The notes beneath the pieces were generated by a model. That model saw nothing but the letters and a program-made list of their open reading frames with translations, was not told where the DNA came from and did no database searches. A DNA stretch of 64,000 nucleotides from a virus: the IMG/VR virus record IMGVR_UViG_3300023202_000068, positions 89,540 through 153,539 of that record; one strand, given 5' to 3'. Below are positions 15,801-53,747 of the stretch, in pieces. Numbering within the stretch: position 1 is the stretch's first letter; each line of letters begins with the position of its first letter. Made by a program: the position numbers and the translations under genes.

Positions 15801-18766
15801 CAGATCAGTTTAGAGCTTACGATGCTGATGCTGGAGCCAGTGCCTCTTTCACACAATTTTTTGGTACAGACTATCCTTTTAAAAACTACAAAGTCTCAAT
15901 GCAGGCAAAGAATGCAATTGACCCAAGTGGTTCTGTAGACGAAGACGCTGTTTTATTTAGATCAGTAGTGTGGGGAAAAGCTGGTGAAAAATACAGAGTT
16001 GGTTATTTCTACCCAACAGGTCCTGATCAGGGAATTGCCAGTTCAGTTTCAGTTGGTGGAACTATTGATACAAGAATTAGCTTAAAGTCTGGTCCAGCAG
16101 TCACCAATAACATCGACGGGACTACAGAGTGGGATGTAACAATTACCCCTAACACTCCTGTTGCAGGTGTGGACGAAGTTACATACTCTTGGACCTCTAC
16201 AGGTTCTAATCCTACAATGAGTACTTTGGCTCCTGGTGACTATGTATCTATTAATAATAGCGGTGAATTTGCAGCAGCAAACCAGGGTACTTTTAGAATA
16301 TCCTCTGCCAACTCTACATCCTTTACGGTACGTAGACCGAACGGAATTGCTTCTGCACAAACTGACGTGGCAACTCTTACAAATACAACAATATCTTTGT
16401 ACGAAGACAGTGACACTACTGCGCAAGAAATTGTAGATCACGTAACTAGCGATCTTGGAGAGTTTTTAACAGCTTCTGTTCTAGAAGATAACGGAGTGAC
16501 TGGTGCTGGTGTAATTAATAAAAGTACTTTTGAGGATAATGATTTTGCTGCCGACTCTAGCTATGTACAATTAGTAGACGGTTTAAACTGGATTGAAACA
16601 AGTGACTTAGACGCTGTAGCTCCTAACTTTCAGTTTGAGTTAAAACAAACTCTAGAGCTTTCAAGCTTTAGCACTAACACTCCAGATGCATACGCTTTTA
16701 ACGACGGTGAAGATTTGCGAATTATACCTACCTCTGTACCACAAGTTTCAGACTTTATATCTGTACTAGCGGTAAGTGGAATAACAACCTTAGGTGAGGT
16801 TGAAACTACAAATAGAGAGCAGCAACTCCAACTTGCCACACAAGTATTAGGTTCTTCTGGAGCCATCCTTATATCTGGTGGTAATGGGAACCAGGCGCAG
16901 GCTTCTGTACTAGGTGTTACCCAGAGAGTTAATGGGACTGATTTTGCCAAAACTACTATAGCTAAGTCTGCTTCGGCTGGTTTTTCAGGTGACAGTTTTG
17001 TAAAATTAGAGGCTACGAATAGACAGAGGAAGCTTACAGGAATTAGTTTTACAACAAATGCCACGATTATCCCTAATCAACCAATAGCCTCTACATCTAT
17101 AGTAGAACTTGGAAACCGCGATATAACTGACAGGTACTTTGGTGAACCTAGAAACTTCATAAGACTTCGAGATAGAGCTTTCCAGGTTGAAAAACAGGGT
17201 ACACTAGTGTGTATCACTTGGGATGAGGTTACTGGTACAGACCCGACCTTCATTAAAACCGTAGAGACTAACGACTCAGGTGGTGGTGACATTACTGCAG
17301 TTTACAATGGAGACTTCAACGCTACAGAATACACAGTATCTACAGGTGATAGACGCTTTAACGAAGTGGGCATTGGTGACACGGTTACTATAGCTACTTT
17401 TACTAACGCTGGTAATAACGGTACTTTTAAAGTATTAGGTGTTTCTGACGATGGATTGACGGTTTCTGTAAATAATACAGCAGGTGTTGCAGAGACGGCA
17501 GCAATCGGTGCTGGAGATATGTCTTTTTCTGCAGAAATTAAAGAAGGAGATAATGTTGAGATTGGCGCTCCTTTTACAAACCTTAACCAGGGTACTTTTA
17601 GAGTAGTTCGAAGATTTAACAACAGCATCTATATAGAAAACGACTCTGCCGTTGAAGAAAGAGTTTTAATCACAGATAACTTGAGAAGCCTTGGTGGTGA
17701 CGCAACAACTGAGTATGATGTGACTGTACCAGGCAACATGAGAATTGAATGGAACACAAACGGAACTGCTCCTACCTTGGCTAACGCTAAGATGGGAGAT
17801 ATCGTTACAGTCGGGACGGCTTTTGCTGCAGCAAACCAAGGTACTTATATGGTAGCAAGCGCAGGCGATAACTTTATTGAAATTCAAAATTCTGCCGCTG
17901 TAGCTGAGACTGGGATTACAGTCACAGGAGTTGGCGGTGATGTGCTTGAGTCACAAATACCGGCAATGAAGTTCAGTGAGTATGAAGCAACTGCACCAGG
18001 AGATATATTTACAATTTCTGGCAATGTGCTTGGGGCTAACAACCAAGGTACTTACAATGTTACTGAAGTTCTATCTAAGAATTCAATTGTAGTAGACGAC
18101 ATACTAACCTCTCAAACTAACGTACAGTTAAATGACTTGTTTGTACAGGTATTTATTCAAGAAGGAACTTCATACACTGGTGTTAAGCGCATCAGGACTT
18201 TTGCTTGTAACCCATCTAACAGTTTACAAACTTGCCTGATTTTTGATACAAACGATCAGTTTGAAAAAATCAATGAGACTGCAGGAATTACCATTTCCAT
18301 GGCAAGTAAGTTGGAGTTCCCAGAGACTACGGTAACTGGTTTCGATTCATACAAGTACCACACAGGACTACTAGCTGAGGCTAATAGAACTGTATATGGT
18401 GATCCAAGGGATACAACTACATACCCAGGAGTCGCTGCTGCAGGTGCTGAGATCTTTATCGAACCACCATTAGTCAAGAGAATTCAGGTTTCTATAAACA
18501 TTAGAGTTAACACAGGTGTTCCTTTCGCTAGAGTGACTGAAGAAGTTAGAAACGCAATTGCAGCTTTGATTAACTCAGCTCCTCTTGGAGAGTCTATTGC
18601 GATTTCAGACATCATTGCTAGTGTAAACTCAATACCAGGTGTGAAAGCTGTATCGATTAGCTCACCTGCTTATGATCAGAATAACGACGTTATTGTGGTG
18701 AACCCAGCAGAGAAGCCATCGGTACTAGACATTGTTAACGATATTACTGTAAGTAAGGTTGAATAA
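12809..18766 (+). CDS. Giant baseplate J-type wedge protein
   Basis: The 1985-residue product is flanked by J-type ends. The N-terminus (GSSVTSFFEAMAQAVYR) and residues about 255-300 (GRNEESDEEIRIRIKKQ, RGLGTAIAIESAVQGI) match P2 J, Mu gp47 and T4 gp6-like wedge proteins. The C-terminus (VRNAIAALINSAPLGESI, IASVNSIPGVKAVSIS) is equally typical. P2 J is about 300 residues and T4 gp6 about 660, so some 1,300 residues are inserted. The insert is beta-rich, without cysteine clusters, and contains repeated modules around NQGTF/Y between residues about 1110 and 1780. The start follows TAGGAG. It forms the ring of the baseplate; the insert may be surface-exposed decoration. Confidence 0.88.
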   Translation: MAKLPVPKSYEQILGDMLATYISKIGVNDLNVGSSVTSFFEAMAQAVYRSSGDTFSILRGFSVDRAEGESLKRLAEEERVFPIPARVATGRITVTDSSFTKISTKIYAGTTPPNIGSTTINVSDASEFPATGSVFLGRGTPNIEGPIAYSSVDDLGGFFRLNLSSPTTKYHNNSETVILSQGGVRNIPVGTAVQTVGGGSSPQIVFSTTQVATILDGETQITNVPVAAQEPGIDGNVPRNAITQFVTTPFTGATVTNPNPFTTGRNEESDEEIRIRIKKQRISRGLGTAIAIESAVQGIQATDENAVVTSNQILSTGDKTTLFIDNGQGYEEATAGIGLEFIVDSALGGEQFFQLATGGNQTSVAKAFLEGTNTSPFNINPNNRLAVLVGGILSEHVFAEGDFASNGAANAFEVVASINANSDLSFSARTIDNGTRITLSAKEETDEFIQKTIPTIGTDAGIAIGIADNEVETLKLFKNKVALSRNGRSAVLESENQSDWSNTITDGDTLIVGVDSTQSITYTFSNADFVAEGTHSTVSKNNTLQSWVNVINSKVTGITASINGNRIVLRSNLGTNSRAALNIDPSSTLVSKGVFTVGQGLSASGREADFTLSRNTGQIKLTAPLEPGDSLTAGSDATQASIESSQILGGNVVLPSDADLWYMVDNSAAAIIPNGVLSDSLITITKQPANVLRVRSNLESAFVNIQPGDYVVLWSDEVLPVNRVEGRVHAVGTELVANDYFEIKLTVPEYNATAAEGPVTFLEGLAFLRTEVPPQKITISAGSYQISEVAGEIRDQLIGVDTATENDEIIIVSTKTKSISGHLLLFTFNDAAKNLNFTEGDSAASQTSLVGFKSGQIKGTDFPLFFHSNFTSDQFASPPGSFIAQYDSALDLDTAGIDPDAFVAIQHPYLSNGSEILDAQAADERVLIDNISGSAIDVDDSKTIRRIRIADRYYLLKTLDLSHNDTITVILDNDAANKTFPVPLFRRATTNTTMPINADQFRAYDADAGASASFTQFFGTDYPFKNYKVSMQAKNAIDPSGSVDEDAVLFRSVVWGKAGEKYRVGYFYPTGPDQGIASSVSVGGTIDTRISLKSGPAVTNNIDGTTEWDVTITPNTPVAGVDEVTYSWTSTGSNPTMSTLAPGDYVSINNSGEFAAANQGTFRISSANSTSFTVRRPNGIASAQTDVATLTNTTISLYEDSDTTAQEIVDHVTSDLGEFLTASVLEDNGVTGAGVINKSTFEDNDFAADSSYVQLVDGLNWIETSDLDAVAPNFQFELKQTLELSSFSTNTPDAYAFNDGEDLRIIPTSVPQVSDFISVLAVSGITTLGEVETTNREQQLQLATQVLGSSGAILISGGNGNQAQASVLGVTQRVNGTDFAKTTIAKSASAGFSGDSFVKLEATNRQRKLTGISFTTNATIIPNQPIASTSIVELGNRDITDRYFGEPRNFIRLRDRAFQVEKQGTLVCITWDEVTGTDPTFIKTVETNDSGGGDITAVYNGDFNATEYTVSTGDRRFNEVGIGDTVTIATFTNAGNNGTFKVLGVSDDGLTVSVNNTAGVAETAAIGAGDMSFSAEIKEGDNVEIGAPFTNLNQGTFRVVRRFNNSIYIENDSAVEERVLITDNLRSLGGDATTEYDVTVPGNMRIEWNTNGTAPTLANAKMGDIVTVGTAFAAANQGTYMVASAGDNFIEIQNSAAVAETGITVTGVGGDVLESQIPAMKFSEYEATAPGDIFTISGNVLGANNQGTYNVTEVLSKNSIVVDDILTSQTNVQLNDLFVQVFIQEGTSYTGVKRIRTFACNPSNSLQTCLIFDTNDQFEKINETAGITISMASKLEFPETTVTGFDSYKYHTGLLAEANRTVYGDPRDTTTYPGVAAAGAEIFIEPPLVKRIQVSINIRVNTGVPFARVTEEVRNAIAALINSAPLGESIAISDIIASVNSIPGVKAVSISSPAYDQNNDVIVVNPAEKPSVLDIVNDITVSKVE
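16200..18120 (+). repeat. Five degenerate protein-level repeat modules in the J protein
   Basis: Five segments share the plan G-D-x-V-x-I, 5-8 residues, N-Q/N-G-T-F/Y, a strand, then N-x-x-A-V-A-E-T. Their NQGT-like cores are encoded near 16278 (AAANQGTF), 17410 (AGNNGTF), 17585 (NLNQGTF), 17833 (AAANQGTY) and 18040 (GANNQGTY). A sixth lies near 19573 in the next gene (PANQGTY). Similarity is clear in protein and patchy in DNA, so the duplications are old. Confidence 0.7.
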
Positions 18767-36961: not shown

Positions 36962-37445
36962 TCGCCTTCTCCTTCATCTCTTTAACGACAACATCCACCT
37001 CTCTTAAGTGAAACTGCTTCTTAATGTCAAAGATCTTTTCAACCAACTCTTCCATAGCCTCGTTTGTCATATCATGAGCCTTAGCAAGGTCAGCTACCTT
37101 TTCGTTCCTGTAAGTCTTATACCTTTTGTCCCTGTCGAGATCAGATAACATCTGTCTTAAAACATGCGGTACTATGTAATCTTTCCACTCAGGAACCCAA
37201 CCTGTTTTTTTACAAACCTTAACCATCTTGCCAGCTATCGGCAAATCAATCCACTCGTGCAAGTCACCATTCTTTATCATTTCATCGCGCTTTTTATTTA
37301 ACTCATTATACGTGGCTTTAGCTTGCATTTGAATTTGAAACATTTTCAAAGCAACAATAGATCTCTTTAAGAAGAAGAAAAACATGTAGAAGAGAAAGCC
37401 CATCATGGCTGCAGACATTAAAATTAAACTAGTAAGTTCGTCCAT
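36939..37445 (-). CDS. Membrane-anchored helical protein
   Basis: The 168 residues start with one long hydrophobic segment rich in phenylalanine and methionine (LILMSAAMMGFLFYMFFFF). A basic, helical cytoplasmic part follows, with a short aromatic loop (KKTGWVPEWKDYIVP). I recognise no family. The ATG overlaps the stop of the ClpP-like gene (TAATG), and the 3' end overlaps the aminotransferase start by 23 bases. It may tether a cytoplasmic complex to the membrane. Confidence 0.7.
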   Translation of the reverse strand: MDELTSLILMSAAMMGFLFYMFFFFLKRSIVALKMFQIQMQAKATYNELNKKRDEMIKNGDLHEWIDLPIAGKMVKVCKKTGWVPEWKDYIVPHVLRQMLSDLDRDKRYKTYRNEKVADLAKAHDMTNEAMEELVEKIFDIKKQFHLREVDVVVKEMKEKASGQEKDL

Positions 37446-38074
37446 TATACCACCTCGTCAATTACGCCATGCTCTAAGCACTCATCTGCAAACAAGAAAT
37501 GGTCTAGGTGTTTTCCAAACTCAAGCCAAAATTCCTTAGGCTTATTGCTCATCTCACCCATCCACTTAGCCCACAACTCTTCTTCCCTATCAGCTTGACC
37601 TACGTAGTTCTTAATTTCTGAATGTCTACCACCCACGTCGTAGCTAGACTCATGGTGCATGAAGGTCGCATATTCACTCATTTTCCTAGCATCACCACAG
37701 GCTAGAATAATAGTAGCTGCAGACATAATACAACCATACCCTACAGTGGTAATGTAGCACTTTGAACTTTTCAACCTACCAACAATAGCCAGGGCTTCGT
37801 ATACAGACCCACCTTCTGAGAAAATCTTAATCGTAACACCTTTTTTACTACCACGCTCAAACTCACTCATGGCGGCATCTATAATGTCAAACATTGGATA
37901 CTCGATAGGTCCAGTCAGTGTGATAGTTCTATCTTTAAAGTTCACACCTCTGTCAAATAGATATTCAAGATGCATAGCGGTTTGAGACAGCTTAGTATCT
38001 GTAGCCTTGACAGCAGAAAATACGTTAGAGTTCCTTTGCGGATTTGGTCGTTTTGTTTTATGTTTCATATTCAC
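37445..38074 (-). CDS. ClpP-like serine protease
   Basis: The 209-residue product has the ClpP/crotonase fold signs: ITLTGPIEYPMFD, IFSEGGSVYEALAIVGRL, then GYGCIMSAATIILACG, where S118 takes the nucleophile place by spacing (Ser to the following Gly is nine residues, as in E. coli ClpP). FMHHESSY supplies the histidine (H140 or H141). FADECLEHGVIDEV matches the usual C-terminal helix. A phage ClpP is often a prohead protease; here it lies among replication genes with no head genes near, so its target is unknown. The consensus GxAAS is replaced by GCIMS. Confidence 0.82.
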   Translation of the reverse strand: MNMKHKTKRPNPQRNSNVFSAVKATDTKLSQTAMHLEYLFDRGVNFKDRTITLTGPIEYPMFDIIDAAMSEFERGSKKGVTIKIFSEGGSVYEALAIVGRLKSSKCYITTVGYGCIMSAATIILACGDARKMSEYATFMHHESSYDVGGRHSEIKNYVGQADREEELWAKWMGEMSNKPKEFWLEFGKHLDHFLFADECLEHGVIDEVV

Positions 38075-43377: not shown

Positions 43378-43432
43378 GAAAATGCGAAGCCTCAAAATGA
43401 GACTCCGCTGGCCATAAGGAGGTGGCATTTTT
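43378..43432 (-). terminator. Intrinsic terminator of the UvsX gene
   Basis: On the minus strand GGAGTCTC and GAGGCTTC (43406-43399 and 43393-43386) pair over eight positions including G-U pairs around a five-base loop. They are followed by GCATTTTC. An outer pair of arms (GCATTTT 43425-43431 and AAAATGC 43379-43385) could enlarge it and would include part of the UvsX stop codon. Confidence 0.65.
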
Positions 43433-44477
43433 ACGAATCAGTAGATCCGTAAATCTTTGAAATTAGGTCACTTTTTAACTTCTCGTCGTCACGAATGGCT
43501 GCGGCAACGGCTTTCTTGCCCTTAAACGTCTGTTCACCTATCTTCCATGTTAGGTTGTTTACACGCTCAATCAGTCCTAGATTACCAGCCAATACCATGA
43601 CTTCTTCTTCTGTATTAATAATGCCCTTGTTGTAATCGAAGGTAATTTGCCCAGTCCTTCCGGCAACACCACGAGAACTCTCAGACATCTGCACGTATAT
43701 TTTATGCGCAGTTACTTCTTTTTTGTCTTTAAAATCCTTCACGTCAGCTTCAAACTTTTCACCAGTAATTGAAGTGTGAGTATCAGCTCTGTTGTTGTTA
43801 CGAGTTACTTTCATGTAATACTCATAAGTGTGCTTTTGATGCCAACCACCAGCCATCTTCTCTTTTGGACCGTACATGCCAGCGTCAAGGTTTCCACGCA
43901 CGTGCGCGGTTGAAATAAGTGCAATTCTATTTCTTCTTAAGAAAGGCATAATTGCAGTCAAACCTTTTTGGATAGTCATAGCGTGATCACCCATTTGGTG
44001 ATCAGTAACTGAGTTTGCATTACCAGCCTTTACACCTTGAATGCCTTGAAGTGAATCGATGATGATTAGTTTTAACTTCATACCATCTTCAACCATTGGC
44101 TGAATGTCTTTAAGTATAGAGTCAAAGATCTCATCAGGTCTATTGGTGTTAAAAGCCATATACCTGTCTGGGTCTATATTCCAGTGTGAGTCTTCAGTCC
44201 CAACAGATCTCATCTCAGTATCATACTTGATAGCCACTGCTTCTGGGTCCATTGCGTGCAGTCCTTGCACAAATGCATTGGTAACAATTGACTTACCAGC
44301 CTTAGGTGGTCCCCACAAGAGTAGGAATTCTTGAAACGGTAGTCCAGGGCTTTTACTGAAAGTCCAGTTAAGACTTGGAGACACCGTTTGAATAAAGTTG
44401 CCTGGAGCGTATGGGTCATACTCTCTATCAACTGCACCATCAAGCTTGCTAAGTTGCTTCATCCATTTATTCGCCAT
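43431..44477 (-). CDS. uvsX: UvsX/RecA-type recombinase
   Basis: The 348 residues show the RecA core: Walker A GPPKAGKS (56-63), the DTEMRSVG segment after it, Walker B LKLIIIDSLQGI, and ISTAHVRGNLDAGMYGPKEK followed by GGWHQKHTYEYYMKV. Length and motif spacing are closer to T4 UvsX (391) than to bacterial RecA, with a shortened C-terminus. It should pair homologous DNA for recombination-dependent replication and repair. Nearby genes for a gp32-like SSB and a UvsY-like candidate complete the set. A strong ribosome site (AAGGAG) precedes ATG 44477. Confidence 0.88.
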   Translation of the reverse strand: MANKWMKQLSKLDGAVDREYDPYAPGNFIQTVSPSLNWTFSKSPGLPFQEFLLLWGPPKAGKSIVTNAFVQGLHAMDPEAVAIKYDTEMRSVGTEDSHWNIDPDRYMAFNTNRPDEIFDSILKDIQPMVEDGMKLKLIIIDSLQGIQGVKAGNANSVTDHQMGDHAMTIQKGLTAIMPFLRRNRIALISTAHVRGNLDAGMYGPKEKMAGGWHQKHTYEYYMKVTRNNNRADTHTSITGEKFEADVKDFKDKKEVTAHKIYVQMSESSRGVAGRTGQITFDYNKGIINTEEEVMVLAGNLGLIERVNNLTWKIGEQTFKGKKAVAAAIRDDEKLKSDLISKIYGSTDS

Positions 44478-44642: not shown

Positions 44643-44927
44643 TTATCCGAAGATATTGTTAGACGGTGCCGCTTCCACTTCAGAGCTTTCTGTATTAGGG
44701 TTGCTCCCAATCATTTGCTCTGTATAGCTAGGCTCATTGTACCTTGTACTGTCGAGTGTCTCTGTAGTATTTTCACTGTTATATCTGTTTACGTGGTTGT
44801 ATACAGTTTTAACAGAAACACCTAGAAGACCAGCAGCTTTTGCCTTGCTTCCGCCAGCCGCATCGATAGCCGCCAACACGTGATTCTTTACAATTTCTTC
44901 CAAGGTTGGAAATTTTTCGTCTTGCAT
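44643..44927 (-). CDS. Fis-type helix-turn-helix protein
   Basis: The 94-residue product carries, at residues 8-50, LEEIVKNHVLAAIDAAGGSK, then KAAGLLGVSVKTVYNHVNRY. This is the four-helix HTH of Fis and of the C-terminal domain of NtrC-type activators (A-A-x-x-L-G-x-S-x-x-T-x-x). The remaining 44 residues are low-complexity and acidic (NTTETLDSTRYNEPS, then SSEVEAAPS), probably disordered. It would bind DNA as a dimer. Its position in the recombination cluster suits an architectural factor or a transcription regulator; no sigma54 domain is present. Confidence 0.8.
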   Translation of the reverse strand: MQDEKFPTLEEIVKNHVLAAIDAAGGSKAKAAGLLGVSVKTVYNHVNRYNSENTTETLDSTRYNEPSYTEQMIGSNPNTESSEVEAAPSNNIFG

Positions 44928-44938
44928 TTTACTACTCC

Positions 44939-45448
44939 TTAGTATTTATTTGGATTAATTCCACTTCTAATTACGATATCCATAGACTTTCTCATATACC
45001 TACAGACGTTTTCAAACACTTTAATCTTGCCTTCCATGAGAGACTCCAATGCTTTAAGTTGATTCATTCTTTCAATAGCTTCGACATAATCTGTCTGTCG
45101 CTCTAAAAATGCCTCACGGTTGGTCGCATTGTCGTTTAGCTTACTCTCTTTAATAAAGGCAGGGTATTCGTCAAGAATATAAATAGACTTCACCTGTCTA
45201 ATACGGCGATCAGCCTGGGTAATCTCATAGCCAATCGCTGCCAAGTTTTTCTTAGCCTCTCTGTATCCTTCGTTGAAGATGAATTCTAGCTCTGTATAAG
45301 TAGCAGGGTTTACAACCTTTGCTTCTAAAAGCCTTTCTTCACCTTCTCGAATCTTTCCCATATCAATATCAATTGCTGGACGATTCTGTGATGGTGGAAT
45401 CGTCAGCTTAGATTGATCGGTAAAGTTTACAGGGAGATTACTGTCCAT
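44939..45448 (-). CDS. Helical protein, UvsY-like recombination mediator candidate
   Basis: The start is ATG 45448, nine bases after GGAG and overlapping the SSB gene; an in-frame TTG at 45463 is less likely. The 169 residues are helical from about residue 25. The C-terminal half (DNATNREAFLERQTDYVEA, then MNQLKALESLMEGKIKVF) recalls the layout of T4 UvsY, the mediator that loads UvsX on gp32-coated DNA. UvsY is 137 residues. The call rests on this likeness and on sitting between the SSB and UvsX genes; sequence identity is not claimed. Confidence 0.45.
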   Translation of the reverse strand: MDSNLPVNFTDQSKLTIPPSQNRPAIDIDMGKIREGEERLLEAKVVNPATYTELEFIFNEGYREAKKNLAAIGYEITQADRRIRQVKSIYILDEYPAFIKESKLNDNATNREAFLERQTDYVEAIERMNQLKALESLMEGKIKVFENVCRYMRKSMDIVIRSGINPNKY

Positions 45449-46505
45449 TAGGTTCTGCTCCAATTGACGCTAAGAAGTCCTCGTTAGACATTGAAGATCC
45501 TGGTGCCGGAGTTGCCGCAGCCGGTGCAGGAGTCTCTGTAGGCGTTGAATCTGCCTCCTGAGTTCCTAGATCAGCAGATGTCGCAGTCGTCTGAGAGAGT
45601 TCTTCTTGAGCACTAGGTGCTGAAGTGGAAAGATCTCCAAGATCTACCTGAGTATTTGGTGCTGTATTTGTCGGTGCAGGTGTGCTTGCACTTTTTACAA
45701 CATCTTCTACAGAAGCAGGTTTTGACTTATCACCTTTGTACTTAGCGATAATGCGATCTAAATCTTCAGGCCCACCGTTTACGATTTCAGAGATTTCTTC
45801 TGAAGTCGGTGCAGGATACATGTTATTAAGCTCAAAAGCTTCAGCATCAAGGCGTGAGATAAACCCAGCATCCATTGTGTGAGATACTTCCTGCTCAATC
45901 AACATAGTCTGACCGTTGACGTTTGCCTGTACTTTTTGCTTGTAAAGATCGACTTTATAAATTGTATCGCGACCTTTTCCAGTACGATAGAAGTTAATGT
46001 AAAGACCGTTCTCTATTGCAAGAGGGTTCTTAGCTTCTTTTTCTCGAAGTGACTTGATAATATCGTCAAGTTGAAGTTTGGCTTTGTGTCCAATCTTAAG
46101 AAGACCGATTTCACCATTAAGGTTTACAGCATTTACATAGTGCTTACCTTCGATGTTAAATCTCATAGACAACTCACGAACTTGCTTAACTTGCTCTTGA
46201 GTGGCTTGTCCAGCCTTAAATTTATCTACAATATCAGATTGAGCTTTTCTAAGCTGCTCAACACGCTGATACGCTGCAGACTCAACTTCAACCATTTTAG
46301 TCTCGCGATTTACAACTCTGCAATCTTGAAAGAGCTTCATGCGTCCTTCAGAATTCTTATAACCCCAGCAAACTTTATAATACTTGGACCAGATGCCCTT
46401 GTCTGCCAACTCACCAAGTGCTGGAAGGATACGGTAAACATTGTCACCATCTTCCATCTTGAAGAATTTCTTACTACTACCTAACTTTGCTTCTCCTACT
46501 TTCAT
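45438..46505 (-). CDS. gp32-like single-stranded DNA-binding protein
   Basis: The 355 residues open with a basic leader (KVGEAKLGSSKKFFKMEDGD) and the gp32 type OB start (NVYRILPALGELADKG, IWSKYYKVCWGY). KHYVNAVNLNGEIGLLKIG and NGLYINFYRTGKGRDTIY give further OB strands. After residue 260 the chain is low-complexity, rich in alanine, threonine and proline, and ends MSNEDFLASIGAEPNGQ. The acidic, flexible tail is typical of SSBs and binds partners. It is longer than T4 gp32 (301) because of this tail. It coats DNA at the fork and in recombination. Confidence 0.82.
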   Translation of the reverse strand: MKVGEAKLGSSKKFFKMEDGDNVYRILPALGELADKGIWSKYYKVCWGYKNSEGRMKLFQDCRVVNRETKMVEVESAAYQRVEQLRKAQSDIVDKFKAGQATQEQVKQVRELSMRFNIEGKHYVNAVNLNGEIGLLKIGHKAKLQLDDIIKSLREKEAKNPLAIENGLYINFYRTGKGRDTIYKVDLYKQKVQANVNGQTMLIEQEVSHTMDAGFISRLDAEAFELNNMYPAPTSEEISEIVNGGPEDLDRIIAKYKGDKSKPASVEDVVKSASTPAPTNTAPNTQVDLGDLSTSAPSAQEELSQTTATSADLGTQEADSTPTETPAPAAATPAPGSSMSNEDFLASIGAEPNGQ

Positions 46506-46506
46506 T

Positions 46507-47283
46507 CTAAACTCCTTGCATATTTTTTTTGATTCGGACTAATGTTTCCTCTACGGATTTTTTCGTCACTTTAGTTATACTATTTATAGACTTGTTTGTC
46601 AAACTTTCATTTTCTGTTTTACCAGCAGTAATTAAAAATAGGTTTTTTGTAATTCTTGCAAGACCTCCGATTAATTCTTGGGTTAGGGTTTCATCTTCTG
46701 TGTAAAGTACGATAGGAACAACTTTCCCAGCGTAGTCTTGGTTGACTGATTGAATAGAGACTTTTTCGATAGCATCAAGACCAACGACTTCTGAGCCTAC
46801 CTTTTCATTGATAGCTCTTTTGGTCATGTCTAAAGCTGCCTCTTCTGAAGCGATTAGCCTCTTATACTTAGCTTCAAAATAAAGGGGTTGGTAACTTGTA
46901 ATATCTACCTCTACCGCTCTGTCTTCGAACCTTGCTGCCAAGTGCTCAAAGAACTCTCTTGAGGCGTTTTTATTCATGTAAATTCGACTAGGTACTTTTT
47001 CTAAAATACTAGAGTAAAAATCATCGGCTTGAAAAGAAAAGCAGTCGAAATACTTAGTTGCGCTCTTAGCAAACTTTTCACCCTCAGGACCCGATGCGAT
47101 CATAAAAAGAGCGTTAGCCATAATCTCTTTTCTGTAATCCATATATAGAGATTTAAGTTGCTCTTTAGCTTGAGAGATTTTACCAAGTCTAACTCTACGA
47201 GTGTTTACATCTGTACCTGGATCTTGTTCAGCCACAGCCTTGGTTTTCTTAATCTGCTCCATTACGTTTTGTATACCGCTCAT
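46507..47283 (-). CDS. Hypothetical protein upstream of the SSB
   Basis: The 258 residues are hydrophilic with helical N-terminal and mixed C-terminal parts: KISQAKEQLKSLYMDYRKEI, RAVEVDITSYQPLYFEAKYK, then VVPIVLYTEDETLTQELIGG. No family is recognised. It ends one base before the SSB start and overlaps the gene upstream by 35 bases, so it is in the same operon. It may serve in recombination or replication, but only from place. Confidence 0.65.
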   Translation of the reverse strand: MSGIQNVMEQIKKTKAVAEQDPGTDVNTRRVRLGKISQAKEQLKSLYMDYRKEIMANALFMIASGPEGEKFAKSATKYFDCFSFQADDFYSSILEKVPSRIYMNKNASREFFEHLAARFEDRAVEVDITSYQPLYFEAKYKRLIASEEAALDMTKRAINEKVGSEVVGLDAIEKVSIQSVNQDYAGKVVPIVLYTEDETLTQELIGGLARITKNLFLITAGKTENESLTNKSINSITKVTKKSVEETLVRIKKNMQGV

Positions 47284-47521
47284 CTTGACTTTCTCCTATT
47301 CCTAAATAGTGTAATACTTTTTCGTCAGTATTTAATTTATTTCTAGCTTGCTCCATCATGTTAACACCCATGATGTTATTTTTAAACTGCTTTTCAATCT
47401 TAAATCTTTTGTCGTATTCAACATTTAAAAACAGTTTCTCTTCATCAGAGGAAATTGACACCTTATGTATCAACATTTCACTCATGTCATGTGCCTCTAT
47501 CAATCTCTTATACCCTGCCAT
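47249..47521 (-). CDS. Hypothetical small protein
   Basis: The 90 residues begin AGYKRLIEAHDMSEMLIH, with a strand-rich part (KVSISSDEEKLFLNVEYDK) and a helical C-terminus containing LNTDEKVLHYLGIGE. No family is recognised. It overlaps the next gene by 35 bases and starts seven bases after the protease gene. The longest overlap of this region makes one of the two starts open to revision. Confidence 0.6.
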   Translation of the reverse strand: MAGYKRLIEAHDMSEMLIHKVSISSDEEKLFLNVEYDKRFKIEKQFKNNIMGVNMMEQARNKLNTDEKVLHYLGIGESQDERYTKRNGAD

Positions 47522-47527
47522 ATACCA

Positions 47528-48451
47528 TCACTTCTTCCAGTTTCTAATAATTTTTGCCGTAACCTTCGGTGTAGCTTGACTCGTCCCTGTCATATACCCT
47601 GCCTGATTATTGGGTAATATAGAAAGGACTTCTGTGCCATCTTCGAAAAAACTAAATGCAGCCCCGTAGTTAGAGGTTTCATGTCTCTCATATCTTTTTT
47701 TAACTACAGACCTACCGTCTCTTTGTAACTTTCTTTCTTCTATTAAGTCATAATTCATAACTGCAATTATTCTAGGGTCATAGGATGCTGGGTAATATCC
47801 AACTGCCTCATCTTGAATTTTAAACAAATGCTTATTCATGTAGTTAATTTTACTCTTATAGACCGTATATCCATTGTCTGCAGTGTACTGGTACAAAGTC
47901 TTGGCACTTATAACATGACTGTCTACCTTCGTACTCTCATTGCCTGCAGCCGCTACAACAACTATCCCTTGATCAAGGGCACGCTTTACAGCTACGTATT
48001 CAGGGTAGAAAAACTCTGTACCACCGGCGCTATAATTTATGATATCAACACCTAGAGAGGTAACGTAATTAAAAGCTTCAACAGTTGCCCTTACTTGTTC
48101 TGGACCGTACAGCCCTTTGCGGTAAGTTTTTACAACTATAATGCAATAGTCTATATCTTTTGATAGCTGAGCGATAATACCGGCTACGTGTGTACCGTGC
48201 CCGTGATTGTCATAGATAGTCCCTGACTTAGTAAAATCCTTGTGACCTTTAGGGCAAAGCTTAGGTCTTACAAGGCCGCTTCCTGCTTTTTTCCATTTTG
48301 ATTTAAAGTCAAAGCCAGTATCCAGAACGGCTACCTTAATAGTAGTAGAACTCACCTTAGGAGGCGAGGAGGTCTGCTGAGCTTCCGATAGGGGGAAGGT
48401 TAGGAAGCCCAGCGACAATATGAATGCTAAAATCTTAATAGTCTTTTTCAT
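47528..48451 (-). CDS. Exported subtilisin-like serine protease (S8)
   Basis: The start is ATG 48451; a start at 48472 would add seven residues ahead of a typical signal peptide (KKTIKILAFILSLGFLTF, cleavage near residue 24). The complete catalytic set is visible: VLDTGFD (D44), NHGHGTHVAG (H85), AAAGNES (oxyanion N171) and GYMTGTSQATP (S291). At 307 residues with no long prodomain it is a compact subtilase for the periplasm or outside. Phage subtilases with a signal peptide are unusual. It could cleave envelope or competitor proteins, or act at lysis. It lies in an operon of replication genes and overlaps the upstream gene by 17 bases. Confidence 0.9.
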   Translation of the reverse strand: MKKTIKILAFILSLGFLTFPLSEAQQTSSPPKVSSTTIKVAVLDTGFDFKSKWKKAGSGLVRPKLCPKGHKDFTKSGTIYDNHGHGTHVAGIIAQLSKDIDYCIIVVKTYRKGLYGPEQVRATVEAFNYVTSLGVDIINYSAGGTEFFYPEYVAVKRALDQGIVVVAAAGNESTKVDSHVISAKTLYQYTADNGYTVYKSKINYMNKHLFKIQDEAVGYYPASYDPRIIAVMNYDLIEERKLQRDGRSVVKKRYERHETSNYGAAFSFFEDGTEVLSILPNNQAGYMTGTSQATPKVTAKIIRNWKK

Positions 48452-48764
48452 AATTATAGTAGTAGTCTGCACTTGCAGATTCCTTTACAGAGTCTATGAT
48501 AAAAGGTTCAATGTCAAGTGAAGAAATTTCAAGAAACATTTTTTTCGCCAACTCTATGTCAAATTTACACTTAGCGTAAAGCTTACCTACAACCGTGCGA
48601 GCAATTCTTTCGCTGTTGTCAAACCTAGAGCCGCGCATAATCATTAATCGGTGATCTACTTCACCATCAGCAAGTTCTATGATATTTTCCTTCATGAAAT
48701 CAATCTTACCCTTAAGAAGAGTAAGCTTGTCTTGATCGAATTGTGTAATGTCTACAGAAACCAT
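48435..48764 (-). CDS. Hypothetical protein, first gene after a promoter
   Basis: The start is ATG 48764, six bases after GGGAGG; an in-frame start at 48782 would overlap the promoter. The 109 residues are mostly helical (DQDKLTLLKGKIDFMKENII, AKKMFLEISSLDIEPFIID) and end in a run of tyrosines (ADYYYNYEKDY). No family is recognised. It is separated from the polymerase gene by 45 bases that hold a sigma70-type promoter, so it starts the transcription unit that runs to UvsX. Confidence 0.65.
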   Translation of the reverse strand: MVSVDITQFDQDKLTLLKGKIDFMKENIIELADGEVDHRLMIMRGSRFDNSERIARTVVGKLYAKCKFDIELAKKMFLEISSLDIEPFIIDSVKESASADYYYNYEKDY

Positions 48765-48784
48765 TGAAACCTCCCTATACACTT

Positions 48785-48813
48785 ATTACAACACAAGGTG
48801 GTGGGCAAGTCAA
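48785..48813 (-). promoter_or_regulatory. Sigma70-type promoter of the SSB-UvsX unit
   Basis: On the minus strand TTGACT (48813-48808) and TGTAAT (48790-48785) are 17 bases apart, with ATG 48764 about 20 bases on. The -35 overlaps the last codons of the polymerase gene. Confidence 0.65.
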
Positions 48814-51800
48814 GATAAAATTGTAGGTTCTTCAATAAAAGTGTTTTGGATGTTTGTGTAGGACTTCCCTGGTTTTTTACTGTATAAAAAATAGACAATT
48901 GCACCTTTCTTTAACGCTGGGTCGTAGTCTAACTTACCTGATTCGAAGTTAGGCCATATTACTTTTTCAGACACATAGCCCGAAGAATCTATAATCATTT
49001 TAAAGGCTTGGCGCTCACCGCCCTTATACGTAAACACATCTGTATCCATAATGTAGCCAGGAGTCACAAAGTAGACTTCTTTGCTCAGGTCAGCATTGTC
49101 GATGCGCTGAAGGTGTTCTCCGTCCAATAATCTATACTCAGCAACACCATTGGTCAATGTCATTCCATTGCCATTTGTGATGATTTTCATACTTGAGCTA
49201 GCTTTTAGAGACTTAATCAGATCTAAGTTCATAGTCGGAAAAACTGATTTTTTTATTTGAAAGGCCTTTTTCGAATTAATACCTATAAAGTCTTCTGGGA
49301 CCTCGGCTGGCTTTGGACCTTTTTTCTTCAACCTTTCAATTTGACCAGTGATAGATTTGCGCTTCTTTTCAAATTCTCCAGCCTCATGGTTTTCCATTAG
49401 GTCACGCAGTGCTTGGTGTTTTTCTGAAAGTTTATTTTCAAAAGCGACTCTTTGTACCGCTTCTTCATAGAGGTTTAGCTTGGTTAGGTCTGCCAGTCCA
49501 GGTTCAAATAAAGAGTCTAGTGCCCCTACATATATGAGCTTCCTAGAGAGTGCGGGTCCACAAACTTTCTTCTTTACAAAATCATCTAAATTAACATAGG
49601 GTCTTTTAGATATAATCTTCTCAGCATAGCTAGTTCCTAAGCCACTGATAACAGAAAGCTTATTGCGAATCTTGCCTATGTCGTAGTCAATCTCCATTTG
49701 TTCTGTTGAAGTATTAACGTCTGGTGGTAAAACCATATCTTTAACATACTTGTAGAATACTTCGTTAATCTCTTTATCATCGGCGTTTGATAGTACAGCA
49801 GCCCACCACTCAAGTGGATAGTGATACTTTAAGAAGGCACATGCGTATGAGATAACAGAGTATGCAACGGCATGGGACTTGTTGAAACCATATCTGGCAA
49901 AAGTCTCCATCATATCCCAGATTTGCTCTGCTGTTGCGGCGTCAACTTTCTTAGAAGCCCCTTCAATAAACACAGGTTTTAATGAGTCAATTAGCTTCTT
50001 TTTCTTCTTACCCACAGCGATTCGCACGTTTTCTGCGTCGATTACGTTCATACCGGCTAATTCTTTAGCAAGCTTTGTAACCTGCTCTTGAAAAACCAGT
50101 ACTCCATAGGTCTCTGGTAACATTTCATCTAGTATTGGAAGTTCACCCTTTGACTCTCCACGTTTACGATATGCATATTCTTGTGCCATGTTTCTACCAG
50201 TTGCTTCATCAATAAAATCTAATGGTCCTGGTCTCCCTAACGATGTGATGACAGCACAATCTATGACCGATTCAGGCATGATGTCTTGAACAAGTGGGGT
50301 AGCAGTTACTGAATTTAGCTGAAAAACAGTCTCAGTCTTGCCTTCCCATAGCATTTTGAATACATTTTCGTCTACAGGTAGGTCCCATGCATACGTCTTC
50401 TCCCCATTATGTGTGAAATATCCCGTAGGCATCTCTGTGTCTTTGTTCTTTTTATTGAGGTATTTTAGGCAAAGGTTTACATCTTTTAACGCTGCAACAA
50501 CTAAGAAGTCATACTTAATTAGACCTGCGGCCTCACAGTCTTTATGTGTCGGCTGGGTTACACGTCTAACGCCGCCCACTTCCATAATCGGAACTGTTTC
50601 TTCAATATCTGCGTCTGAGATTACATATGCACAAGCATGTCTTGAGTCCTGTCTGGATAAAGAAAGTGCACGTTTTACAATATTCCACTCATCAGGTCTA
50701 TCTTCAGAGTACTTCTTTAAGTCTGGGTTGATGTCAATCAGACCATCAACGTGTGCGCCGTCTTTTTCGTATCCGAAAACAAAGTCTTGATCACTCACTC
50801 CTTGAGGCGTATTAGGTAGAGACTTTGACAAGGCTTGTATTTCAGGCTCTAGAGTTCCACCGTTCATAAACCTATTAGCATCAAGAATGGCTGATTTAAT
50901 TCGTAACAAGGTTCTAGTGGAGACTTGAGCTGCTTTTTTGCCGTACTTATTAAATAGGTAGCCAGAATTATTATCCTTACCTACAAGTGGTATTCGAGAC
51001 TCTAAGTCACAATCGATATCTGGCAAGTTACCAGACTGAACACGGTCAATGGTTAAGAATCTTGAAGATGATAGTCCGTATTTGATAGGGTCAACGTGAG
51101 TAATACCGATTAGGTAGGAGATTAAAAAACCACCTGCAGAACCACGAGCAGGGCCTGTTAAGTGACCGTTTTTAGCGTAGAAATCATAAATGTCTGTAAT
51201 AGGAAGGAAGTATGGGATTAGATCAATAATGCCGTTCTTAGTAAGTAGCTCAAACTCTTCTCTAAATTGAGTTACATACCTTTCATCGTCCCACTTCATT
51301 CTACCCATCTCTTTAATTCGAGCCACTAGTAGTTTTTGCGGGTCACCTTCAGGTATAGGAAGTCTGTAGTCATAGTCGAGACTAAAGTCTTTAAAGCTCT
51401 CAGCCCACAACTCAGAGTTTTTAATTAAGTGATCAGGGTCTTCCCCTAAAGATCTGATGTAATCAACAACTTCAGACTCTTGAGTTGATCTGATATGTTG
51501 GGCTTGGTAGATACGCTTTTCATCCCCTAGCTTCATATCCTGTACGACCTTATCACCAGGGTCACTGTAAAAAGCATAGTTATTAATTAAGAGGAATCTG
51601 TACATTTGGTGTTGGTGCGCCATTTCAATAATAAATTTATTAGCTTCCGTTTGTACGTCTCGCATCTCTTGAAACTTGCTTGTAACTTCTACATTAGATA
51701 TGTCTTGAAACTCTTCTTTAATTTGATAGCGAATATTATTAACATACACAGCCTTGAGCTGTTTATGACCACGCTTTGATAGTTCGTTGGCTCTTGAGTT

Positions 51801-52445
51801 ATTCCACTTGTTAGTTTCCACACGATTTAGGGCTGGTATCTCAATATCGACACCGCCAGCCTGCAGCTTCATTACGTTCTGCCAATACTTGTCTTGTTGA
51901 TATGGAATAATGGAAGGCCAATATCTCCCTGAGGGAAACATTTGAGTTAGCTTTTTAAAATAAGCTTCGGCAACGTCTCTTCTGTCTACTAGTAAGTGCT
52001 TAGTTACGATATCTTCAACATCTGCTGTTGTAAGAGTTACATTAAGGGTCGATAGATATTCCAGGTCTTTCCAGTTGTGCAGGTTGAACATTTCACCATT
52101 CACCTCTACCTGCGGCCTGTCGGTCTCTGAGACGAGTTTTACGAGTGCCTGGTATGCTGGCTGGTCCACAGCGTGAACGATGAATTTGGAGTACCTGAAG
52201 GCTTCTGAGGGTGTACCCTGAGCAAGGTTACACGTAGGGTCTTTAAAATAAAGCTCAACCCCTGCTATAAATTTTACATCATTTTTCTTAGCGTAGTTAT
52301 AACCTCTAATTATTGACTTTAGGTGACCAGTATCGGTGCACGCAAAATAATTAACACCAAGACTGACTGTCTTGTCGATCATAGACTCAATAGTTGAGCC
52401 TGATAGGTGTGATTCTGGGTGGTTTACTGGACTAATGTAGCTCAT
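48810..52445 (-). CDS. dnaE: DNA polymerase III alpha subunit (C family)
   Basis: The 1211-residue product has a PHP-like N-terminus and the C-family palm. GPARGSAGGFLISYLIG is near residue 430, followed by PDIDCDLESR with two catalytic aspartates near 475. Further C-family marks are RPGPLDFI, LPETYGVLVFQEQV and YGFNKSHAVAYSVISY. At the N-terminus HPESHLSG and CTDTGH replace the usual metal-binding HxHxxYS and TDHG, so the PHP site looks degenerate. A separate DnaQ-type exonuclease gene overlaps its start by four bases and would proofread. No clear clamp-binding site was sought. It is the replicative polymerase. Confidence 0.92.
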   Translation of the reverse strand: MSYISPVNHPESHLSGSTIESMIDKTVSLGVNYFACTDTGHLKSIIRGYNYAKKNDVKFIAGVELYFKDPTCNLAQGTPSEAFRYSKFIVHAVDQPAYQALVKLVSETDRPQVEVNGEMFNLHNWKDLEYLSTLNVTLTTADVEDIVTKHLLVDRRDVAEAYFKKLTQMFPSGRYWPSIIPYQQDKYWQNVMKLQAGGVDIEIPALNRVETNKWNNSRANELSKRGHKQLKAVYVNNIRYQIKEEFQDISNVEVTSKFQEMRDVQTEANKFIIEMAHQHQMYRFLLINNYAFYSDPGDKVVQDMKLGDEKRIYQAQHIRSTQESEVVDYIRSLGEDPDHLIKNSELWAESFKDFSLDYDYRLPIPEGDPQKLLVARIKEMGRMKWDDERYVTQFREEFELLTKNGIIDLIPYFLPITDIYDFYAKNGHLTGPARGSAGGFLISYLIGITHVDPIKYGLSSSRFLTIDRVQSGNLPDIDCDLESRIPLVGKDNNSGYLFNKYGKKAAQVSTRTLLRIKSAILDANRFMNGGTLEPEIQALSKSLPNTPQGVSDQDFVFGYEKDGAHVDGLIDINPDLKKYSEDRPDEWNIVKRALSLSRQDSRHACAYVISDADIEETVPIMEVGGVRRVTQPTHKDCEAAGLIKYDFLVVAALKDVNLCLKYLNKKNKDTEMPTGYFTHNGEKTYAWDLPVDENVFKMLWEGKTETVFQLNSVTATPLVQDIMPESVIDCAVITSLGRPGPLDFIDEATGRNMAQEYAYRKRGESKGELPILDEMLPETYGVLVFQEQVTKLAKELAGMNVIDAENVRIAVGKKKKKLIDSLKPVFIEGASKKVDAATAEQIWDMMETFARYGFNKSHAVAYSVISYACAFLKYHYPLEWWAAVLSNADDKEINEVFYKYVKDMVLPPDVNTSTEQMEIDYDIGKIRNKLSVISGLGTSYAEKIISKRPYVNLDDFVKKKVCGPALSRKLIYVGALDSLFEPGLADLTKLNLYEEAVQRVAFENKLSEKHQALRDLMENHEAGEFEKKRKSITGQIERLKKKGPKPAEVPEDFIGINSKKAFQIKKSVFPTMNLDLIKSLKASSSMKIITNGNGMTLTNGVAEYRLLDGEHLQRIDNADLSKEVYFVTPGYIMDTDVFTYKGGERQAFKMIIDSSGYVSEKVIWPNFESGKLDYDPALKKGAIVYFLYSKKPGKSYTNIQNTFIEEPTILS

Positions 52446-53086
52446 TGACTCTCGATGATTTTGAGAAGGTTGTTTTCAGACGTTTGATTAATCAATACGT
52501 CTTTTTTTACCTGCGTAATAAGTTCACGCATTTTGCGGTAAACTTGAATATTCATTTTAACATCACCCATGGCATTATGGGCATCTATTTCAGGAATATT
52601 GAAATAATCAGCAAGTCCTGTTAGTCTGGTATTCATACTCTTGGGTAAGATACCTACGTCTTGTAAAAATGTGGTGACGTTTGTTGTGTCTAATTGGTGG
52701 TAATGGATTAGCTTGTCCCATGTTTCTTTAGGCATAAGTTGGTGCCAGATAAAGCGATTATCAAAGTCAATGTTGTGTCCACAAGGTCTAAAGTGCTTTC
52801 TCTTACCCTTTATCTTGTGTTTTTCTAAAAAAGCTAATAACTTAGCCTGACCTTCCTTGTACGTGAGTGTAGCGGGGTCATTTAAGTGTTCTTGTAAATT
52901 AATCCCGTTAATCTTTAGGGCCTCTACATCTACACTTAGATCTTTTAAATCTGCAGGTTTTAGTTGCAAATAAAGTGAGTCGATTGTTTTTAAATTTTCA
53001 TCGCACACGTCGAAGTACGCTGTAAGCAAAGATTGCTTGTCGTGGTATAAGCCACCTGTCTCACAGTCATAAAACATTAACCACAT
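52442..53086 (-). CDS. DnaQ-type 3'-5' exonuclease (DEDDh)
   Basis: The start is ATG 53086, six bases after CAGGAGG; an upstream in-frame start at 53110 is not needed. The 214 residues carry Exo I MFYDCETGG (D7, E9), Exo II in HNIDFDNRFIWH, and Exo III IDAHNAMGDVKMN with the histidine and aspartate of the DEDDh class. It should remove mismatched 3' ends, acting as proofreader for the polymerase encoded next to it. The gene is driven by an extended -10 promoter 45 bases upstream. Confidence 0.87.
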   Translation of the reverse strand: MWLMFYDCETGGLYHDKQSLLTAYFDVCDENLKTIDSLYLQLKPADLKDLSVDVEALKINGINLQEHLNDPATLTYKEGQAKLLAFLEKHKIKGKRKHFRPCGHNIDFDNRFIWHQLMPKETWDKLIHYHQLDTTNVTTFLQDVGILPKSMNTRLTGLADYFNIPEIDAHNAMGDVKMNIQVYRKMRELITQVKKDVLINQTSENNLLKIIESQ

Positions 53087-53116
53087 AGTTACCTCCTGTT
53101 TCACAAACAAAATAAT

Positions 53117-53139
53117 AATCTTTATAAGTGTACCACAAA
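53117..53139 (-). promoter_or_regulatory. Extended -10 promoter of the exonuclease-polymerase unit
   Basis: On the minus strand the bases read TTTGTGGTACAC (53139-53128), then TTATAAAGATT. This is a variant of the GTGGTATAT core and, like the promoter at 9871, is followed at once by ATAAAGATT. The site lies in a 67-base gap shared with the divergent GIY-YIG gene. Confidence 0.5.
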
Positions 53140-53153
53140 ATTAAGGATAAAAA

Positions 53154-53747
53154 ATGAGTAAATATTACATTTATTACCACAGAGATCCCCGACCAGAACA
53201 TAAGGGTTGGAAGCGATATATTGGTAAGGGTAGTGGTAGCAGAGCTTTTGATTTTAAAAACAGAAAAGCCAAGCACCTGCATTGGATACAAAAATTAGAA
53301 AAGAGTGGGTTAAAACCCATTGTTGAAATAGTTGAAAATTTTGATAAAGAATCGGATGCATACAAAAGAGAAAAAGAATTAATTAAAAAATATAGGGATT
53401 TGGGATACAACCTATGTAACTTAACAAACGGTGGAGAAGGTGGTGGTGGAGAAGCCGTTGTGGAGTCTAATAAGAGGCGTAGGGGAGAAAGAAGGTGTAA
53501 TAAATCAAGGTTTGGTAATAAACACGCACTAGGTAGCAAGAGAACACCAGAGCAGATAAAAAAAATGTCTGAGGTAGCGAGAGGTAATAAAAATAGAGCC
53601 AGAAAAATAAAATGCTTAAATAACAATAAAATATACGAATCGGTAAAATCTGCTAGTGAAACTCTAGGGTTAGATAATAGGTCGCTACATCGCGTGCTAA
53701 AGGGAGAGTGGTCGCACACAAAGGGGTATAAGTTTAAATACATCTAG
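53154..53747 (+). CDS. GIY-YIG homing-type endonuclease
   Basis: The 197 residues start YYIYYHRDP and have RYIGKGSGSRAFD, the GIY-YIG core, then ELIKKYRDLGYNLCNLTNGG with the catalytic region. After a basic linker comes a NUMOD-like segment (KHALGSKRTPEQIKKMSEVA) and a C-terminal IENR-type HTH (VKSASETLGLDNRSLHRVL). This is the domain order of Seg-type free-standing homing nucleases. It is the only + strand gene between 35 and 64 kb, inserted between the exonuclease gene and the small gene at 53744, whose 3' end it overlaps by four bases. Confidence 0.88.
   Translation: MSKYYIYYHRDPRPEHKGWKRYIGKGSGSRAFDFKNRKAKHLHWIQKLEKSGLKPIVEIVENFDKESDAYKREKELIKKYRDLGYNLCNLTNGGEGGGGEAVVESNKRRRGERRCNKSRFGNKHALGSKRTPEQIKKMSEVARGNKNRARKIKCLNNNKIYESVKSASETLGLDNRSLHRVLKGEWSHTKGYKFKYI

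Follow-up and report, generated by a model that had tools for sequence, protein, structure and literature searches.

A compact, putatively exported subtilase in the replication gene cluster of an uncultured Mx1-like phage

Secreted subtilisins such as BPN' need a prodomain for folding. BPN' and Carlsberg are S8 peptidases with an I9 prodomain, and they share the catalytic Asp/His/Asn/Ser residues, the fold and a (here predicted) Sec leader with the phage enzyme described below. Deletion of residues 75-83 greatly speeds both the folding and the unfolding of subtilisin, and variants of this Δ75-83 type can do without the prodomain in folding; a 22-87 disulfide makes folding a further 700-850-fold faster (PMC4865297).

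Subtilases are already known from phages. Fifteen annotated phage records match at E<=1e-5, and all 18 aligned members of the group treated here match PHROG 3677 (best E=4.7e-60), a 1125-position profile labelled only 'protease'. Moorella phage MTATph1 and Bacillus phages BSP12 and KLEB27-3 also encode S8 enzymes, of an intracellular type, and in two of the three these are found near replication genes. The MTATph1 gene (L011, 5809-6795) lies beside helicase, RuvC and DNA polymerase genes, and that of KLEB27-3 (L013, 3926-4750) beside SSB and RecA. No description of exported phage subtilases devoid of both prodomain and calcium loop was found in the part of the literature that was covered.

The stretch of DNA analysed here, the window, is 64,000 nucleotides long and corresponds to positions 89540-153539 of a virus record of 153,539 bases. 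The best annotated relative of this virus is Myxococcus phage Mx1, with 51% identity for the major capsid protein (MCP), 47% for the portal and 35% for DnaE. Terminase, RNR, GroEL and nicotinamide phosphoribosyltransferase (NAMPT) are shared as well, and both phages display the core gene order DnaE-p258-SSB-p174-UvsX. The homologous MCP and this gene order place the virus among the Mx1-like phages, and judged from these sequences it is a distant relative of Mx1. Mx1 itself does not have the subtilase; there p258 is found directly after DnaE. The phage GroEL (record 15148-16953) is 43% identical to that of Mx1, while NAMPT (record 70481-71848) is 51% identical to the Mx1 protein. A ClpP-like protease (window 37445-38074, Pfam E=2.2e-19) is encoded downstream of primase/helicase genes, and a homologue is found in the corresponding position in Mx1.

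Table 1. Features of the subtilase locus (window coordinates)
Feature	Position	Strand	Evidence or remark
DnaE-type DNA polymerase III alpha, upstream neighbour	48810..52445	-	Pfam/PHROG; 35% identity to Mx1 DnaE
p115, small ORF, 17-nt overlap with subtilase start	48435..48782	-	homologue only in L121/L105
Predicted signal peptide, residues 1-24 (...PLSEA/QQ), without lipobox in the window copy	48380..48451	-	sequence
Compact S8-family subtilase of 307 aa, predicted to be exported	47528..48451	-	PF00082, PHROG 3677, AF2 model, Foldseek
Catalytic Asp44 (AVLDTG)	48320..48322	-	invariant in 61/61 homologues
Cys66, proposed disulfide partner of Cys103; precedes GHKDF motif	48254..48256	-	pair in 51/61 homologues
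Catalytic His85 (HGTHVAG)	48197..48199	-	invariant in 61/61 homologues
Cys103, at site of shortened calcium-A loop (BPN' ~75-83)	48143..48145	-	spacing comparison
Oxyanion-hole Asn171 (AAAGNE)	47939..47941	-	60/60 rows that have a residue at this site
Catalytic Ser291 (GTSQATP); 16 residues to C-terminus	47579..47581	-	60/60 rows that have a residue at this site
p90, small protein adjoining subtilase in many syntenic loci, without signal peptide	47249..47521	-	
p258, 258-aa conserved protein downstream of subtilase	46507..47283	-	abuts DnaE in most subtilase-lacking relatives
ssDNA-binding protein (SSB)	45438..46505	-	PHROG 1192 E=2.4e-9; homologous to Mx1 SSB
p174, conserved module member	44939..45463	-	
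UvsX/RecA-like recombinase	43431..44477	-	PHROG 97 E=8.7e-23
Terminator-like hairpin after UvsX	43384..43408	-	11-bp stem then T-rich tail

The subtilase (Table 1) starts with the ATG at 48451 and comprises 307 amino acids. It matches PF00082 (Peptidase_S8) with 80.6 bits (E=1.6e-22; Pfam cut-off 21.8) and PHROG 3677 with E=2.5e-34, and a phmmer comparison with subtilisin BPN' gives E=2e-15. The AlphaFold2 model (pLDDT 82) has a subtilisin fold, with a Foldseek match to subtilisin at E=5e-14 and PDB subtilisins at E about 1e-14. The Asp/His/Ser triad and the oxyanion Asn are all found in S8 motifs and are invariant in an 18-member alignment. When IMG/VR was searched with a subtilase alignment, 260 loci were confirmed; the best 80 were retained, and merging of copies left 61 exported-type proteins. 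In these 61 non-redundant homologues from the best 80 of 260 loci the four residues are unchanged, the exception being one truncated row. The original prediction described a phage-encoded compact subtilase with a signal peptide and an intact Asp-His-Asn-Ser set. The residues are indeed present, compactness turns out to be common to the whole homologue group, and the analysis likewise predicts export. Catalytic inactivity, which had been named as a finding that would speak against the proposal, is at the level of sequence contradicted by residues that do not vary across about 60 divergent homologues. The window subtilase is very probably an active exported protease.

The export call is based on hydropathy and a predicted helix. 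The leader, MKKTIKILAFILSLGFLTFPLSEA followed by QQ, is by hydropathy predicted to be a type-I-like signal peptide, and in the AlphaFold model it forms a lone helix comprising residues 2-17. Intracellular subtilisins have no export leader, while the window subtilase has a hydrophobic one. Such a leader is also found in 60 of the 61 exported homologues (from the best 80 of 260 loci) versus none of ten intracellular-type phage subtilases, and a crude signal-peptide test was positive for 48 of 66 subtilases versus 9.5% of 1436 neighbouring ORFs. Thirteen of the 61 homologues from the same best 80 loci have a lipobox, in no case with Asp at +2. According to the +2 rule of E. coli, the outer membrane is favoured for a lipoprotein without Asp at this position. 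It could alternatively be imagined that the N-terminus is a mere anchor, and that the catalytic domain stays inside the cell, where the protease, either cytoplasmic or anchored in the membrane, would target replication proteins or those of the host. A gene situated between DnaE and SSB would suit such a role, as would the unrelated intracellular-type subtilases near replication genes in MTATph1 and KLEB27-3. However, the short positive n-region and the hydrophobic run predict that the catalytic domain is outside, the lipoboxes in 13 homologues point the same way, and the co-occurring cysteine pair described below suits an oxidising compartment. Moreover, the intracellular-type phage enzymes are leaderless and are found elsewhere on the tree, and a cytoplasmic role seems improbable.

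The catalytic Asp is residue 44 of the precursor and lies 20 residues past the predicted cut, which leaves no room for a prodomain. An I9 propeptide would occupy about 77 residues between the leader and the catalytic domain, and Pfam gave no I9 match in the window subtilase. The absence of a long prodomain, as first proposed, is thus borne out by the position of Asp44, and it is a family trait: a median of 32 residues separates the start Met from the catalytic Asp in the exported group, versus 157 in cellular subtilases. The exported enzymes are also truncated at the other end, with a median of 19 residues after the catalytic Ser versus 314. Between the catalytic His and the residue corresponding to BPN' Lys94, 60 of 63 cellular subtilases have a spacing of 30-31, and 12 of 14 intracellular-type phage subtilases one of 30. 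In 61 of 64 exported or other rows the spacing is 21-28, and in the exported clade it is mostly 21-27. The 7-8 residues that are gone from the exported group correspond to the calcium-A loop region (BPN' 75-83), and the window subtilase does not have this high-affinity loop. Both Cys66 and Cys103 are found in 51 of the 61 homologues (from the best 80 of 260 loci), the remaining ten being without the pair. This co-occurrence suggests a disulfide, Cys103 aligning near BPN' 89 and not exactly with position 87. The window subtilase thus displays the full anatomy of the exported group, namely a leader straight before the core, a short calcium-A loop, the cysteine pair and a truncated C-terminus.

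The absence of the calcium-A loop, which the original prediction did not mention, offers a reason for the prodomain being unnecessary, and by analogy we infer that what frees the Δ75-83 subtilisins from the prodomain also lets the phage enzyme fold without a propeptide. The model of one homologue, L111 (pLDDT 92.7), superposes on the Δ75-83 subtilisins (e.g., 1suc, 1sue, 1gns) with an rmsd of 2.4-2.8 and a target TM of 0.68-0.70, while the fit to the 275-residue BPN' is poorer (rmsd mostly 3.6-4.2, TM 0.63-0.65). Its top matches by E-value are deseasin MCP-01 and a lanthipeptide protease. A requirement for the disulfide may further delay activity until the protein has been exported. The other suggestion made for the missing prodomain, that the enzyme is activated elsewhere, found no support, as neither an I9-like prodomain nor an inhibitor was seen to be co-encoded. 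The only frequent neighbour, p90, was considered as a prodomain or inhibitor acting in trans and rejected, as it has no leader, occurs at a protease-free locus (G007), and was not seen beside exported subtilases at other loci.

DnaE, the subtilase, SSB, and UvsX are all encoded on one strand. No strong terminator was found between DnaE and the subtilase, where one weak terminator-like match lies inside p115, and the hairpin after UvsX is the probable end of the operon. With DnaE upstream and SSB and UvsX downstream, the subtilase is probably co-transcribed with these genes, and its assignment to a replication-phase operon in the original prediction is supported. The p90 family comprises proteins of 80-100 amino acids that appear to be cytoplasmic, with the pattern N..SGRIFVEF...G.L..QKSF and no match in Pfam, PHROG, or NCBIfam; they are encoded directly after the subtilase in L102, L104, L106, L109, L111, L137, L142, and others. 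Between UvsX and p174 a 94-aa protein is encoded (44643-44927) whose weak NCBIfam matches (E about 3e-4) indicate a resemblance to the Fis-type DNA-binding end of sigma-54 regulators. DnaE is split by an ORF of ~290-360 amino acids in several relatives (L108 1547-6400, L112 3634-8600, L263, L264, and L259), and in G007 it is 1542 amino acids long. Such interrupted or long DnaE genes suggest inteins or homing elements.

Single-protein searches of viral and genome contigs using the window subtilase gave no match, and the same was the case for a search using DnaE. Relatives were instead recovered using capsid and subtilase alignments. The MCP alignment search identified 68 relatives in IMG/VR, and an S8 gene was found in 17 of 50 MCP-related records that were checked. 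All ten relatives of at least 150 kb with an MCP identity of at least 65% encode the subtilase, in the order DnaE - subtilase - (small ORFs) - p258 - SSB, and with UvsX downstream. Among 11 more distant near-complete records it is present in four, at this place or elsewhere, and absent in seven. Ten loci lacking the subtilase mostly have p258 immediately after DnaE, then SSB, p174, and UvsX. In G007 DnaE is followed by two small ORFs, one of which is p90, and then by p258, while in G027 neither p258 nor SSB was recognised downstream of DnaE. Since G007 has no subtilase despite an MCP identity of 67%, the gene is dispensable for some relatives. When the subtilase-bearing loci are compared to those where DnaE and p258 are directly adjacent, the subtilase gene seems to have been inserted at one fixed junction, then inherited, and at times lost or moved.

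A tree of 141 sequences was made by a quick IQ-TREE run with SH-aLRT support and without bootstraps. One branch splits 63 exported phage proteins from the rest (SH-aLRT 98), and a 59-sequence core of this group has a support of 99. The other side of the branch holds 63 cellular proteins, 14 intracellular-type phage proteins, and the stray, long-branched phage protein L014. The exported phage enzymes are separate from the intracellular-type phage subtilases and from the sampled cellular ones, which come from three phyla and were picked by similarity. An MCP profile gave 11 strong and six weak matches among 40 subtilase-bearing records, many of the others being short fragments, while the three intracellular-type records gave none. 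The exported group thus largely belongs to Mx1-like phages and their distant kin.

Across 18 syntenic loci the subtilase distances track those of DnaE (Mantel r=0.61) and SSB (r=0.66; p=0.0005), while the core genes track one another more tightly (r 0.79-0.87). For the close pair L130/L135 the subtilase has a dN/dS of about 0.22 and a synonymous divergence above that of DnaE, which agrees with purifying selection and a degree of allele exchange. No recent cellular source was found in 58 + 149 + 145 genomes of three phyla, where the best cellular score was 156 bits versus 190-274 for phage copies in MAGs. That other phages carry unrelated subtilases, and that some relatives are without the gene, might be taken to mean that it is a functionless recent host-gene capture, a moron or passenger. 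This is very hard to reconcile with invariant catalytic residues, conserved synteny, distances following DnaE and SSB, a dN/dS of about 0.2 in the close pair and the lack of a close cellular relative among the genomes of the three phyla. A recent unexpressed acquisition, the second finding named beforehand as speaking against the proposal, is contradicted by the same observations, including the synteny in ten out of ten near-complete close relatives. The compact enzyme has been kept in dozens of uncultured relatives and so probably serves a genuine function on the surface of infected cells.

Three MAGs contain capsid genes of the clade, namely Planctomycetaceae UBA969, Saccharibacteria, and Deltaproteobacteria bog_1112. 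The last contains two different phage contigs (L210 and L211) with DnaE-subtilase-SSB, and this co-binning gives a weak hint of a deltaproteobacterium-like host lineage; none of the other genomes among the 58 of its phylum has a clear clade capsid gene. A candidate lysis cluster on the minus strand (record 51991-53257 in G000; 12991-14257 in L005) encodes four small proteins that carry leaders or membrane segments. The weak match of one of these to Rz-like spanins (E=7.8e-4) argues for a diderm host.

The exported subtilase might also be a lysis accessory, helping to breach the envelope (e.g., outer-membrane lipoproteins or an S-layer) late in infection. It is predicted to be exported, some homologues would be lipidated like o-spanins, and early translation might be combined with late action. 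However, the gene is in the replication operon, about 85 kb (record) from the cluster of small membrane proteins, relatives without it persist, and early, unregulated proteolysis of the envelope could make the cell lyse too soon. Digestion of host surface layers, of competitor or of predator proteins, and help in release were the roles first suggested for the enzyme. A role in release is less likely because the Rz-like spanin candidate cassette is found elsewhere in the genome, and a spanin role for the subtilase itself was disfavoured since this separate cassette exists. Taken together, we find a contribution to lysis unlikely.

The best overall explanation, to which we assign a probability of roughly 0.5, is a self-folding, active subtilase that is exported during replication and cuts host envelope proteins. 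It would be made in the replication phase alongside DnaE, SSB, and UvsX and exported by Sec, whereupon the leader would be removed or, in some homologues, the protein lipidated. The core, having no calcium loop and no propeptide, would then fold directly in the periplasm, whose oxidising milieu would let the disulfide form, and activity would be turned on only after export, sparing the cytoplasm. The subtilase would trim envelope proteins at the periplasm or outer membrane, and the outcome could be an infected cell that is refractory to further phage owing to receptor or envelope shaving, or an envelope remodelled during takeover. Superinfection exclusion or takeover remodelling is tentatively favoured over lysis because it fits best with timing, location, and the occasional lipid anchor. 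The large genome encodes nucleotide and NAD metabolism genes, and the protease might thus instead degrade periplasmic or extracellular protein to feed synthesis. Such scavenging would depend on a single small enzyme with little time to act, a linked peptide transporter was not seen, and the lipid anchor in some copies would indicate a local target, all of which make it a poor candidate. The more specific proposal, that a phage-specific lineage has dropped the prodomain and the calcium-A loop, uses a disulfide, becomes active after export and protects the infected cell by shaving receptors or envelope proteins, is a speculative one.

If the proposed role is correct, the DNA-replication operon of an entire group of uncultured Mx1-like phages has retained a protease aimed at the envelope, outside the usual lysis and virion protease roles. 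The best curated NCBIfam matches, the T7SS mycosin (TIGR03921) and QhpE (NF049966), are not equivalents, as the scores are 54 versus a cut-off of 279 bits and 36 versus 165 bits, respectively. QhpE is likewise a compact subtilase, but it acts in the cytoplasm (PMC7876137). IetS and the PADLOC subtilase defence proteins gave partial weak matches only. The intracellular-type phage subtilases differ in having no leader, a full calcium-A loop (12 of 14 at 30 residues) and a separate place in the tree. When compared to BPN' and Carlsberg, the phage subtilase has no prodomain, a shortened calcium-A loop, and a cysteine pair, and the C-terminal helices are missing. The engineered BPN' Δ75-83 enzymes (PDB 1sue, 1suc, 1gns) likewise are without the calcium-A loop and fit the L111 model more closely than wild-type BPN' does, and some versions have a disulfide added to the same N-terminal region (PMC4865297). 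They are man-made while the phage family is natural, and the disulfides correspond only approximately in position. A natural exported group without prodomain and calcium-A loop would, if confirmed, be a direct and testable case of a folding rule from protein engineering, with members that are small. Should the more specific proposal above also hold, nature would have a parallel to the subtilisins engineered to do without a prodomain, and superinfection would be excluded by proteolysis.
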